Of a stretch of 46,060 nucleotides of DNA, positions 6,572 through 41,654 are shown in pieces; position 1 is the first letter of the stretch; each line of letters begins with the position of its first letter. The position numbers were made by a program, and so were the translations under genes. The stretch covers positions 2,330-48,389 of the forward strand of contig MFZK01000003.1 of the NCBI GenBank assembly GCA_001789395.1, given 5' to 3'. This stretch comes from Candidatus Roizmanbacteria bacterium RIFCSPHIGHO2_02_FULL_37_13b. GTDB taxonomy: Bacteria; Patescibacteriota; Microgenomatia; UBA1406; HO2-37-13b. Under the pieces are notes generated by a model that saw only the letters and a program-made list of their open reading frames with translations, was not told the DNA's origin and searched no databases.

Positions 6572-7186
6572 ATGAATTCATTACCGAAGTCACTTCAAAA
6601 AACTATTGATTTTTTTGAGAAACTGCCGGGCATTGGCCCCAAATCTGCTAAAAGATTAGCTTTTTATTTACTCCGACTTCCACAACAGGATCTTGATGAA
6701 GCAGCCAAAAATATATCTATGTTAAAAAATAATTCTTTATATTGTGAAATATGTATGAATTTAACTGAGGAAAAAATATGTGCTATATGTGAGGACGAAA
6801 ATAGGGATCACACAACAGTCGTAATTGTGGAATCGGTTTTAGATCTATTATCAATGGAAGTTGGGAATCAGTATAAGGGAATCTATCATGTCCTGCACGG
6901 TCGAATTGATCCATTAAATTATATAGGCCCGGATGATATTTTTATCGGTAAGTTAATTGAGCGATTGAAAACCAATAAAAAGAAAATCAAAGAACTAATT
7001 TTAGCAACCAATCCTAACATGGAGGGGGAAGCTACCGCTATTTATATTAAAAATAAAATCTTAGAAATGCTGGGTTCAAATATTAAAATCACCCGCTTGG
7101 CTTACGGGCTACCGATTGGCGCCGAACTCGAATATGCTGACTATATGACGCTTTCAAAGGCTCTCGAGGGACGAAGGGAATATTAG
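6572..7186 (+). CDS. recR: Recombination protein RecR
   Basis: LPGIGPKSAKRLAFYLL, CEICMNLTEEKICAIC zinc finger, Toprim, ATNPNMEGEATAIYI. Confidence 0.95.
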   Translation: MNSLPKSLQKTIDFFEKLPGIGPKSAKRLAFYLLRLPQQDLDEAAKNISMLKNNSLYCEICMNLTEEKICAICEDENRDHTTVVIVESVLDLLSMEVGNQYKGIYHVLHGRIDPLNYIGPDDIFIGKLIERLKTNKKKIKELILATNPNMEGEATAIYIKNKILEMLGSNIKITRLAYGLPIGAELEYADYMTLSKALEGRREY

Positions 7187-7198
7187 ATTAAATTAGAG

Positions 7199-8869
7199 TT
7201 AAATCTGAAGTAATTCGACGACAATTAAAGGTTGTCTACCCGTCTTGGAGTTAAAATAACTTTCCATTGTTTTAATCACTTTTCCTTTAACTGTGCTTGA
7301 TGTCAAAATTTCGTCTTTTTTTGGTTTTAATATTTCATCAACTTTTTTTCGAGCATTGTCAAAAATTTGCTGCTCGTTATCTTTAAAAATAAATCCTCGG
7401 GAGATAAATTCAGGCGGTAAAGTCAATTGAAAATTTCTATTCACAATAAGAACTACAACAACAATTCCTTCACGAGCTAGAGTCTTTCTATCTCTCAAAA
7501 CAATATTGCCAATGTCTCCAACGCCATAAGCATCAACAAAAATATTTTTTGTTTCGATGATTTCGCCAGGCTTGGCAACACCATCTTGAAAATTAATTGT
7601 TTGTCCCTCTTTCATAAGAAATACTTGGTTATCCTTATAACCCAGTTGGCGCGCTAATTCAAGATACTGTCTTTGATGTCTGATAGTTCCGCCAATGGGA
7701 GTTAAATATTTTGGTTTTAAAAAAGCGATCATGAATTTCAGATCCTCTTGACTGCCATGTCCCGACGCATGAAGTCTTTCTGCGATATCAGAATAGACAA
7801 CTTGAGCATGCGACATGTAAAGCCTTTCAATTAAATCATAGACTTCTTCTTCTTGTCCGGGAATAGGATCTGATGAAAACACAACCTTATCTCCCGGATC
7901 AATTTTGATGAATTTATTCAGATTGTTAGCTATCTTTGACAGCGCGGAATCATATTGACCTTGGCTTCCTGCAGCAATAATACAAACTTTATTAGCGGTC
8001 ATCCGTGAAACCGCTTTATCCTCCAAAATAAATCGCTCTGGAATAGATAGATAGCCTATCTCCTTGGTAAGTTTTGTATTGGTTACCATTGATCGTCCCA
8101 AAAAACAGATACTTCGATTAAATTTAATCGCTGCCTCGACGCATTGTCTTATTCGAGAAATATTAGAGGAAAAAGTGGTCATGATAAATTTACCCCGTGT
8201 TAACCGCATTTCATCTTCAAAAGTCTTACCGACAATTCTTTCTGACAATGTCAGACCCTCTCGCTCAGACCCGAGACAGTCGGATAATAGACACGTCACG
8301 CCTTCTTCTCCAGCCGCAACAATCTCATAAAAATCAGGTGGCTGACCGTAGGGTGGTGTCAAATCGAGTTTGAAATCAGATCCATGATAAAAATTACCTG
8401 CGGGTGTTTTTATTAAAATATGACACGTATCAGGAATTGAATGAGTCATTTGGATAAAGCGTACCTTGAATGGACCAAAAATGTAGTCACGTCGGTAGCT
8501 TATCACATTAACCTTTAAACTGAAACCATATTCCCTAACTTTCTCTTCTACTAATAGTGATGTCAATTTGGAAGCATAAACCGGTGGACGACCCAATGGT
8601 TCATAATGAAATCTTAGAGCGCTTATATGATCTTCGTGACCATGAGTTAAAAGAATGGCTCGTATTTTATCTTTCTTATCCTGAAGATAGCTGATATCCG
8701 GAATAATGTAGTCGACACCTAATTCTGCTTCCTTAGGAAAACCTATACCGCAATCGACTATTAGAATATCCGTTAAAACATTATCTTTATAAAGTTCATA
8801 CAGATACATATTCTTAGTGACATCAACAATACCACCGAGTGGTACGAAACGAAGTCTATAAGAGTTCAT
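7199..8869 (-). CDS. rnj: Ribonuclease J
   Basis: LLTHGHEDHISALRF metallo-beta-lactamase motif, DCGIGFP, VVFSSDPIPGQE, HASGHGSQEDLK. Confidence 0.95.
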   Translation of the reverse strand: MNSYRLRFVPLGGIVDVTKNMYLYELYKDNVLTDILIVDCGIGFPKEAELGVDYIIPDISYLQDKKDKIRAILLTHGHEDHISALRFHYEPLGRPPVYASKLTSLLVEEKVREYGFSLKVNVISYRRDYIFGPFKVRFIQMTHSIPDTCHILIKTPAGNFYHGSDFKLDLTPPYGQPPDFYEIVAAGEEGVTCLLSDCLGSEREGLTLSERIVGKTFEDEMRLTRGKFIMTTFSSNISRIRQCVEAAIKFNRSICFLGRSMVTNTKLTKEIGYLSIPERFILEDKAVSRMTANKVCIIAAGSQGQYDSALSKIANNLNKFIKIDPGDKVVFSSDPIPGQEEEVYDLIERLYMSHAQVVYSDIAERLHASGHGSQEDLKFMIAFLKPKYLTPIGGTIRHQRQYLELARQLGYKDNQVFLMKEGQTINFQDGVAKPGEIIETKNIFVDAYGVGDIGNIVLRDRKTLAREGIVVVVLIVNRNFQLTLPPEFISRGFIFKDNEQQIFDNARKKVDEILKPKKDEILTSSTVKGKVIKTMESYFNSKTGRQPLIVVELLQI

Positions 8870-38109: not shown

Positions 38110-39211
38110 AAACTATTTTCTCCCATGGAAACTCATCTCTTCCAAAATGTCCATATGCCGCGGTATTGAAATAGATTGGTCGTAGAAGATCGAATTTGTC
38201 GATGATTCCTTTTACAGATGTGTCAAGCAGCTTTGTCATTAAACTATTTATAACTTTAAAAGATTTTTTTGCTGTACCAAATGTCTCTATTTGTTGCATG
38301 ACCGGTTTTCTAGCGCCGATAAAATATGCCAATCTCACTTCACAGCGATCGGCCAATCCGCAAGCAACGATGTTTTTTGCTAAGTATCGAGCTGCATATG
38401 CACCTGAACGATCAACTTTTGTGGGATCCTTTCCAGAGAAACATCCCCCACCGACATGACACATACCGCCGTAGGAATCAACAACAATCTTTCGACCGGT
38501 GACGCCCGAATCCGCTGCCGGGCCGGAGAAATGCCAAACACCGGTTCCATTAAACATAAATTCTTTTAATGTAATTTTATATCCAAATTCATTTAAAACC
38601 GGTTTAACAACATAATTGAAAATATCATTTTTAACCGTGCTTATCGAAACACTTTTCAGATGGGGGACAGCCATGACTATTTGTTCAACGGACACAGGTT
38701 TAAATTTATTATAACCAACAGTCACTTGAGATTTACCATCGGGTCGAAGATAATCAAGCTTTTTATTTATCCGAATCTCATCAACCTTCATCACTAATCT
38801 ATGTGCTATTGAGATTGGTAAAGGCATATAATTTTTAGTGTCTGAACAAGCAAAACCAAACATCATTCCCTGATCTCCTGCTCCTTCATCATCGACGCCA
38901 ACTGCTATTTCCGGTGATTGAGTATGGACTTTAACAGTGATTGGGGAATTAAATGTAAATTTTAATTCCGGGTCAGTATATCCTAATTTTTTTATGACGT
39001 TCTTGGTTATTTTTTTAAAATCTAATTTGGCTTTTGTTTTAAGTTCTCCTACCAATGCTACAAAATCTTTGCCGACCATTGCTTCAACTCCAACATGGGA
39101 GTGTTTATCTACACTTATGGCCGCATCTAAAATCGCATCGCTGATTTGATCACAAATTTTATCAGGATGCCCAGCACAGACAGACTCGGAAGTAAAAGTT
39201 GTTTTGATCAT
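38105..39211 (-). CDS. metK: S-adenosylmethionine synthetase
   Basis: MIKTTFTSESVCAGHPDKICDQISDAILDA, GAGDQGMMFGFAC, GGCFSGKDPTKVDRSGAYAARY; ATG 39211 preferred because the upstream extension reads through the riboswitch. Confidence 0.95.
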   Translation of the reverse strand: MIKTTFTSESVCAGHPDKICDQISDAILDAAISVDKHSHVGVEAMVGKDFVALVGELKTKAKLDFKKITKNVIKKLGYTDPELKFTFNSPITVKVHTQSPEIAVGVDDEGAGDQGMMFGFACSDTKNYMPLPISIAHRLVMKVDEIRINKKLDYLRPDGKSQVTVGYNKFKPVSVEQIVMAVPHLKSVSISTVKNDIFNYVVKPVLNEFGYKITLKEFMFNGTGVWHFSGPAADSGVTGRKIVVDSYGGMCHVGGGCFSGKDPTKVDRSGAYAARYLAKNIVACGLADRCEVRLAYFIGARKPVMQQIETFGTAKKSFKVINSLMTKLLDTSVKGIIDKFDLLRPIYFNTAAYGHFGRDEFPWEKIVS

Positions 39212-39230: not shown

Positions 39231-39254
39231 AAAAAAACTCCCCGTAGGGAGCTT
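39231..39254 (-). terminator. Intrinsic terminator between riboswitch and metK
   Basis: Minus strand AAGCTCCCTACGGGGAGTTTTTTTA: CTCCC/GGGAG hairpin followed by T7. Confidence 0.75.
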
Positions 39255-39275
39255 GTTTGCTCGGTTTTTCGGCCG

Positions 39276-39386
39276 ACCTTATCATCCCTTGTTCGGGCTA
39301 GTCTTGGCACCATTCCGCTTCACAAACGGATGGTTGTCGGATAGGTCATAACGAGCTAGTTCTCATCCCTATCTCTCTTGATAATA
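39276..39386 (-). promoter_or_regulatory. SAM-I-type riboswitch upstream of metK
   Basis: Minus strand TTATCAAGAGAGATAGGGATGAGAACTAGCTCGTTATGACCTATCCGACAACCATCCGTTTGTGAAGCGGAATGGTGCCAAGACTAGCCCGAACAAGGGATGATAAG matches SAM-I hallmarks: AAGAGAG, AGGGA, ATGACC, GACAACC, GGTGCCAA, GATGATAAG closing P1. Confidence 0.9.
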
Positions 39387-39430
39387 ATACTTTACTAATA
39401 TTAACTAATTTTGATTAATATTTCAATTGT

Positions 39431-40684
39431 TTAAGTACCTTCTCGCCAAGAGGTTAAATATTTCTTTTGTTCCTGGGATAATTTATCAATTGAAATGCCT
39501 TGACTTTTAAGTTTCATTGAAGCAATGGACCGATCTAACTTTTCCGGAAGTTTATACACTTTTGGTTTTAATTTTCCTTTATTCCTCCATAGATATTCAG
39601 CTGCTAATGCTTGCCCAGAAAAACTCATATCCATAACGGATGCCGGATGCCCTTCAGCGGCAGCCAAATTTACTAGTCGTCCTTCTGCTAATAGATATAT
39701 TTTCTTATTTCCTAAATCATATTCTTCAACAAAGGGACGGACCTGACTGACTTTCTTTGAGAGTTTCTTTAAGGCACCTTTATTAATTTCTATATCAAAA
39801 TGTCCGGCTTGTGCCAAAATGACACGATTCTTTGCTTTCATAAAATGTTTCTCCGTAATGACATACTTATTGCCTGTAGTTGTTAACACTATATCAGCAT
39901 TAACGATTGCTTTGATAAGTGGCATGACTAAAAAACCATCCATTTTAGCTTCTAATGCTTTGATGGGATCAATTTCACAGACAACGACATTCGATCCCAT
40001 ACCACGCGCTCGATTAGCGACGCCCCGCCCACACCAACCATAACCACAGATAACAAACGATCGACCGGCTAATAATACGTTGGTAGCACGAATGATACCA
40101 TCAATAGTTGATTGTCCTGTTCCATAGCGATTATCAAAGAGATGTTTAGTTTGATTATCATTTACTGCCAAGACGGGAATTTTAAGTTCACGCGCTTTTG
40201 CCATAGCTTTAAGTCTGATAACTCCTGTGGTCGTCTCTTCACACGATCCAACTACATCCTTGATAAGTTCGGTTCTTTTCTGATGAATAAGAGTAACCAA
40301 ATCACAACCATCATCCATAGTTAAATTTGGTTTGTAATCGGCCGCTTGATTTAAATGTTTGTAATAAGTTTGATTATCTTCACCTTTTATGGCAAATACG
40401 GGAATTTTGTGGTTTTCTACTAGAGCAGAAGCAACAGCATCATTAGTGGATAGAGGATTTGATGCACATAAAACCACTTTAGCGCCTCCTGAAACAAGCG
40501 TGATCATCAAATTGGCTGTCTCGGATGTCACATGTAAACACGCAGCCAATGTAACACCTGACAGAGGTTTACTTATAGAAAATCTGAGTCTTATCAGATT
40601 TAATACCGGCATCTCATTTGATGCCCACTGAATAAGTTTTTGCCCTTCTGGAGCTTTTTGCAGATCTTTGATATCGTATTTCAT
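39431..40684 (-). CDS. ahcY: Adenosylhomocysteinase
   Basis: AACLHVTSETANLMITLVSGGA, MDDGCDLVTLIH, CEETTTGVIRLKAM, NDNQTKHLFDNRYGTGQSTIDGI, GYGWCGRGVANRARGMG, EGHPASVMDMSFSGQALA. Confidence 0.95.
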   Translation of the reverse strand: MKYDIKDLQKAPEGQKLIQWASNEMPVLNLIRLRFSISKPLSGVTLAACLHVTSETANLMITLVSGGAKVVLCASNPLSTNDAVASALVENHKIPVFAIKGEDNQTYYKHLNQAADYKPNLTMDDGCDLVTLIHQKRTELIKDVVGSCEETTTGVIRLKAMAKARELKIPVLAVNDNQTKHLFDNRYGTGQSTIDGIIRATNVLLAGRSFVICGYGWCGRGVANRARGMGSNVVVCEIDPIKALEAKMDGFLVMPLIKAIVNADIVLTTTGNKYVITEKHFMKAKNRVILAQAGHFDIEINKGALKKLSKKVSQVRPFVEEYDLGNKKIYLLAEGRLVNLAAAEGHPASVMDMSFSGQALAAEYLWRNKGKLKPKVYKLPEKLDRSIASMKLKSQGISIDKLSQEQKKYLTSWREGT

Positions 40685-40709: not shown

Positions 40710-41654
40710 CTACATCAAACTCTTGATTTTGTTAACACGATCGCAAAATCGCTTGTCGGTAAATTTATAATTGACTGTACCATATTTTTCTACGCTAAAA
40801 CTGGCTAGAGCATTCCCCCAGATTAGACAATCTTTCATATTCTTTCCTTCAAGAAATGCTGCTAAATAACCCCCCCGAAATGCATCACCTGCACCTGTTG
40901 GATCAACGGGATTTGATATCTTATAACCGGGGACATCAATTGTCAATCGTTTTGATTCATATCTTACTCCCTTATTCCCAAGCGTAGTGATAACCTCGAT
41001 TCCTTGCGAACAGATCTCTTGTATAGACCAATGAGTTACTTTTTTTATCGATGCAATTTCATAATCATTTCCTATTAGAAACCGACAAAATTTTATTCCT
41101 AATTTTAACTTTTCAGGTGAAATCCATGTCAATGTCATTCCTGGATCAAACATATAGGGAATTTTATTGTCAATAAGTTGATCTAGATGGCTTAAAAAAG
41201 CCCGTGGGGCTGTAGCTGATAAGATCATAAAGCATTTGTCATTAAAATTGTCTTTCAGATTAATCTCAGCAGCTTTTGCTAATGCTCCATGATAATAACC
41301 CCAAATCTGATTATCGCCCTTATCAGTAATGACCTTACCGGTTGCGGAAAAAGACTTTTTGTCTTGAATAAGAAAATCTAAATTAATTTTGTGCTTTTTA
41401 AAAAATGATTTAAATGCAAGTCCATCCTTGCCTATAGAAGACAAAATTGATATTTTTTTTGAAGTAAGCAGTCGCGCGCCATAAACAATATTGGTGGCTG
41501 TTCCACCTAATTGTCTTTCTAATCGATCTACTACAAAAGACACATTTATTTGGTGCAGCATTTTGGGATTTAAATATTTGACAAAATATGAAGGAAAATC
41601 CATTATCTCGTCATATGCAACCGATCCACTGACAATCAATTGATCATAAACCAT
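40710..41654 (-). CDS. PfkB-family sugar/nucleoside kinase (adenosine kinase candidate)
   Basis: GGTATNIVYGARLL, FDPGMTL, LIGNDYEIA, NPVDPTGAGDAFRGGYLAAFL. Confidence 0.88.
   Translation of the reverse strand: MVYDQLIVSGSVAYDEIMDFPSYFVKYLNPKMLHQINVSFVVDRLERQLGGTATNIVYGARLLTSKKISILSSIGKDGLAFKSFFKKHKINLDFLIQDKKSFSATGKVITDKGDNQIWGYYHGALAKAAEINLKDNFNDKCFMILSATAPRAFLSHLDQLIDNKIPYMFDPGMTLTWISPEKLKLGIKFCRFLIGNDYEIASIKKVTHWSIQEICSQGIEVITTLGNKGVRYESKRLTIDVPGYKISNPVDPTGAGDAFRGGYLAAFLEGKNMKDCLIWGNALASFSVEKYGTVNYKFTDKRFCDRVNKIKSLM

Follow-up and report, generated by a model that had tools for sequence, protein, structure and literature searches.

Among SAM-clan riboswitches, SAM-I combines a helix P4 with the pseudoknot PK-1. 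SAM-I/IV has an unbroken P2, a P4 and a second pseudoknot, PK-2, formed by loop L3 with the 3′ flank, and lacks PK-1, and SAM-IV has PK-1, PK-2 and P5 and lacks P4 (PMC6890682). The P2 kink of the canonical SAM-I aptamer contains a 3-nt bulge (PMC3651934), 13 residues lie within 5 Å of SAM and constitute the pocket list used here (PMC6890682), and U7 contacts the sulfur of the ligand (PMC3764141). The SAM-Chlorobi motif (RF01724) resembles the element described below in that it, too, occurs before metK and ahcY genes (PMC2864571). SAM switches of Patescibacteria/CPR are not described in the riboswitch passages of PMC11665869, PMC10409787 and PMC4508563, and a literature search that left out most subscription journals, and thus does not prove absence, returned no paper joining "SAM-I riboswitch" and "candidate phyla radiation".

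The window (the whole 46,060-nt stretch of DNA analyzed here) contains the genes for a PfkB-family kinase, AhcY and MetK, which are consecutive in the genome:

38105–39211, minus strand: metK, S-adenosylmethionine synthetase, 368 aa (Pfam PF00438, PF02772, PF02773).
39431–40684, minus strand: ahcY, S-adenosylhomocysteine hydrolase (Pfam PF05221, PF00670), upstream neighbor, outside the switch.
40710–41654, minus strand: PfkB-family kinase (Pfam PF00294), upstream neighbor.

The kinase upstream of ahcY is possibly an adenosine kinase, a substrate assignment that we infer. Similarity of metK probably places the genome in the CPR class Microgenomatia; among named relatives, a Daviesbacteria bacterium is closest (63% identity).

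Scanned with Rfam at default settings, the window yielded a single tRNA and no riboswitch, because the element ahead of metK scores under the gathering score of its family. When the leader was scanned permissively with cmscan, RF00162 (SAM-I) was matched at 39387–39276 on the minus strand over the whole model (1–108 of 108) with 30.9 bits (E = 2.5e-5), below the cut-off of 44.4 bits, which is a detection threshold and not a structural feature. Of the cmscan check proposed in the initial annotation, the family match therefore stood, and Rfam's own cut-off was missed. A clade model, R1, was built from an alignment (A1) of 27 other Microgenomatia (CPR) SAM-I-type aptamers, with the window excluded; 24 of these immediately precede metK, in L010 a small ORF intervenes between aptamer and metK, and L006 and L007 are not metK leaders. 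With 70.1 bits (E = 4.3e-19), the element was the sole match of R1 in the window. Given the full-length RF00162 match and this R1 score, the SAM-I segments noticed beforehand on the minus strand (39386–39276) are real, and the positions assigned to them were accurate to within one base. The RNA ahead of metK is very probably a SAM-I-type riboswitch, a candidate with SAM as its putative ligand; it represents a new, divergent addition to an established riboswitch class and is an ordinary kind of switch. To the full reading, in which a SAM-I riboswitch switches metK off at high SAM, we assign a probability of roughly 0.87; the ligand, the OFF direction and the exact antiterminator are the parts that we infer. 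The aptamer is composed as follows:

39276–39387, minus strand: SAM-I-type aptamer with P1, P2a/P2b, P3, a short P4 and PK-1 (RF00162, 30.9 bits; R1, 70.1 bits).
39380–39387, minus strand: 5′ strand of P1, UUAUUAUC (fold; register according to the RF00162 and R1 alignments).
39340–39373, minus strand: P2, with P2a GAUAGG/CCUAUC, P2b GAG/CUC and loop AACUAG (sequence, R1 alignment, fold).
39356–39359, minus strand: 5′ strand of PK-1, CUAG in the P2 loop, pairing with CUAG of J3/4 at 39301–39298 (fixed-position test).
39306–39338, minus strand: P3, with pocket residues C44, A45, A46 and C47 plus U57, G58 and C59 (R1 alignment, residue comparison).
39286–39297, minus strand: short P4, CCC (39297–39295) with GGG (39288–39286) (fold, A1, R1 alignment).

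P1, claimed earlier as TTATC…GATAA, is formed by UUAUC (39384–39380) and GAUAA (39283–39279); an alternative register, in which UUAUUAUC pairs with GAUGAUAA at 39286–39279, is possible. A four-way junction of P1, P2, P3 and P4 is present in both the fold and the R1 alignment. With SAM-I (S box), the element shares P1, P2a/P2b, P3, P4, PK-1, the full pocket, the terminator platform and the SAM/methionine gene context. Apart from its score (30.9 versus the cut-off of 44.4), it differs in an A·C at position 43–59, in the putative P2 kink-turn, where the tandem G·A/A·G typical of SAM-I is present as GA/GA and is accompanied by a 5-nt bulge (GUUAU) and an extra U opposite, and in PK-1, which is preserved with the altered sequence CUAG/CUAG. 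P4 comprises 2–3 pairs, flanked by A64–U85 instead of the common U–A.

The A·C replaces the highly conserved pair G43–C59, of which C59 itself is kept; this is a conserved, not a defining, position and, apart from C59, it is outside the pocket list. Among the 27 aligned relatives, the pair is A·C in five and A–U in one, indicating that A·C is tolerated in the clade. All 13 pocket residues (6–8, 11–12, 44–47, 57–59 and 87) are identical to those of SAM-I, and U7 and U88 are also unchanged. The altered 43–59 pair, together with ahcY immediately upstream, might be taken to indicate a SAM-I-like aptamer with a different ligand preference, for example, for SAH. This is very unlikely, however, because the listed pocket residues, U7 and U88 are all conserved, the A·C pair recurs in SAM-I-type relatives, and the switch is located after ahcY and before metK. 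SAM is considered the more probable ligand.

The core is also shared with SAM-I/IV (RF01725), which is frequent ahead of metK in this class, whereas in the window element P2 is broken and PK-1 is present; in a search with RF01725, the window element was not among the matches at E ≤ 0.001. SAM-IV (RF00634) is alike in core and PK-1, but the window element carries P4, and no PK-2 was supported. A PK-2 candidate spotted by eye, GUUUG of L3 with CAAAC downstream of P1, was rejected as a chance match (p = 0.27 for Watson–Crick pairs, 0.67 when G–U was allowed); across the class, PK-2 gave a modest overall signal. A SAM-I/IV or SAM-IV identity for the window element was rejected on its broken P2 and on the presence of PK-1 and P4, and RF01724 was not among the leader matches listed up to E = 10.

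Genes for metK were gathered from the order (31 of 83 genomes) and the class (157 of 373), and their leaders were examined without an RNA model. A descriptor of the core plus stems was found in 79 of 139 metK leaders; it fitted none of the 139 antisense strands and, among 695 first-order shuffles, only 8. In A1, the SAM-I structure paired 91.9% of the cells (78.9% when shuffled, 32–40% when slid), and 110 cells were doubly changed, compared with 34; the number of further pair types in A1 was uninformative, as it was reached by 289 of 500 shuffles. PK-1 was paired in 98% of the A1 cells, with both sides changed in three of its four pairs. When tested at fixed positions in 59 sequences, PK-1 was fully paired in 32 (permuted, 7.7 ± 2.2, maximum 18 in 5000), fell to 0–1 full matches when slid, and occurred in 12 pair types, one of which, CUAG/CUAG, was found in 7 of the 59. 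Helices and pseudoknot covary strongly across Microgenomatia relatives; conserved pairing among homologs, the absence of which the initial annotation had named as evidence against a riboswitch, is clearly present. This bears also on whether the locus is a decayed, non-functional remnant, as its low Rfam score, A·C mismatch and changed kink might suggest. With PK-1 and the 64–85 pair maintained through compensatory change, the same departures seen again in other genomes and a high R1 score, decay is extremely improbable. Between ahcY and metK, the element is accompanied by the following features:

39398–39426, minus strand: candidate sigma-70 promoter, TTGAAA-N17-TAATAT, between the ahcY stop and the aptamer (consensus scan, 9 of 12 matches).
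39272–39308, minus strand: candidate anti-aptamer helix, GCC-AA-GACU (39308–39300) with GGUC-GGC (39278–39272) (predicted fold).
39249–39262, minus strand: candidate antiterminator hairpin, GAGC-AAACAA-GCUC, overlapping the 5′ arm of the terminator (predicted fold).
39231–39254, minus strand: intrinsic terminator, CUCCC/GGGAG core (8 pairs counted), then T7 (terminator scan).

The CTCCC/GGGAG-T7 terminator that had been claimed to follow the aptamer is present, with CUCCC-UACG-GGGAG and T7 spanning 39251–39231 on the minus strand; two terminator-like sites were found, compared with 0.3 in shuffles. Promoter-like sites numbered three, compared with 1.0 expected in shuffles, and the promoter match is weak on its own; the candidate would start transcription just before P1 and make metK its own unit. 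The metK ATG at 39211 is situated 20 nt past the T run and outside the aptamer, and this start, proposed earlier, agrees with the MetK N-termini of relatives. Because it does, a start at 39313 would translate the aptamer, and the warning that such an extension wrongly translates riboswitch RNA was justified.

When the leader was folded at growing length, the probability of P1 dropped to 0.11–0.24 in transcripts ending before completion of the terminator. The anti-aptamer helix, the pairing of which excludes PK-1 and part of P3, reached predicted pair probabilities of 0.32–0.61 in transcripts ending at 39270–39264 and 39246–39242, and the antiterminator hairpin 0.66–0.78 in those ending at 39246–39242. 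In longer transcripts with a complete terminator, the terminator dominates. At equilibrium, the full-length leader prefers the terminator irrespective of whether P1 is imposed or not, and switching must therefore be kinetic. SAM would bind in the P1–P3 pocket and stabilize P1 and PK-1, so that formation of the CUCCC/GGGAG terminator would be unhindered and transcription would end before metK. At low SAM, GCC-AA-GACU of J3/4 would pair with GGUC-GGC just 3′ of P1, GAGC would pair with GCUC of the terminator 5′ arm, and RNA polymerase would read through to metK. In these predicted folds, a plausible antiterminator accompanies the terminator, and the layout is predicted to be that of the usual SAM-I OFF switch acting by transcription termination.

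A leader with a real aptamer could, instead, act chiefly on translation or mRNA stability, the terminator being minor or constitutive. The P1-independent equilibrium fold would be in line with this, as would the situation in the class, where a simple test found no terminator in 50 of 89 parsed metK aptamers, and these 50 are located near the start codon (median 23.5 nt). However, the window contains a clear T7 terminator, as do 39 of the 89, mutually exclusive folds sequestering the terminator 5′ arm are predicted, and the aptamer does not include the metK start. Control of this kind is considered unlikely, and termination is the preferred reading.

Across 373 Microgenomatia genomes, R1 yielded 125 matches, and 114 genomes have one. 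Of the 125, 81 precede metK in the same orientation at a distance of ≤600 nt, and none lies near metK on the opposite strand. RF00162 exceeded its cut-off in only 29 of the 373 genomes, versus 114 with R1, which means that Rfam-based surveys of the CPR strongly undercount SAM-clan switches; RF01725 exceeded its cut-off in 26. The curated model overlooks most of the SAM-I-type switches, which are widespread in Microgenomatia, and this major CPR class is indicated to use SAM-clan riboswitches widely on metK. R1 matches not associated with metK precede genes with MetE, MTHFR and Cys/Met-enzyme domains, that is, a typical SAM regulon, and this gene context argues for SAM as the ligand. SAM-I elements with high scores, the majority of them followed by terminators, were also observed before short ORFs of ∼90–120 aa (L233, L234, L235, L241, L245, L251 and L260), several of them in genomes where no metK was found.

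The metK leaders of the class match SAM-I and SAM-I/IV, and one weakly matches SAM-IV. The leaders L022, L037, L045 and L029 scored above the RF01725 cut-off, hence orthologous genes carry differing SAM-clan architectures. In 10 of the 27 aligned relatives, the P4 position is just 3–5 nt long, that is, helix P4 is missing. Because some P4-less relatives also match RF01725, a portion of the ten may belong to a SAM-IV-like type and not constitute a new form. It is conceivable, at somewhat less than even odds, that the Microgenomatia metK leaders constitute a natural series at orthologous genes, from SAM-I with P4 via P4-less forms with PK-1 to SAM-I/IV-like ones, including very compact P4-less switches with P1 abutting the metK start codon, and that the window represents a P4-bearing member with a remodeled P2 kink. 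The class offers a system for studying the interconversion of SAM-I, SAM-I/IV and SAM-IV. A 2024 perspective proposes, in its riboswitch passages, such RNAs as control tools for Patescibacteria (PMC11665869), and native Patescibacteria riboswitches would be natural parts for them.

SAM-I-type aptamers before metK that lack P4 and bear PK-1 were L005, L044, L018, L020, L033, L035, L171, L200, L214 and L229; in two of these, L005 and L044, only 3–4 nt separate the P1 core from the metK start codon downstream. In L033, L179 and L200, the P3 loop may pair with the metK start codon region (by-eye or longest-match pairings), and these candidate pairings suggest that it may directly occlude the start codon.

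Single-family searches were run in the host genome, which measures 1.16 Mb and is 93.5% complete. Two methionine synthase families, PF01717 (MetE catalytic domain) and PF02574 (MetH/BHMT), had no match in it; therefore, scavenging is the probable source of methionine, which leaves the synthesis of SAM as the step to regulate and supports what the initial annotation had supposed. Within the order, no more than 31 of 83 genomes have a metK by PF00438, and the supply of SAM is therefore uneven even among close relatives. FMN riboswitches above the cut-off were also encountered in the order (L025:2628–2752 and L035:538–661). The host genome contains a second SAM-I riboswitch, which, at 48.7 bits, is above the RF00162 cut-off. 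It (L003:6736–6844) has its own terminator and precedes a gene (6906–8246) encoding a protein in which a weak guanylate-kinase-like N-terminus is fused to a histidine phosphatase domain, and the same pairing of SAM-I with such a gene repeats in another family (L243).
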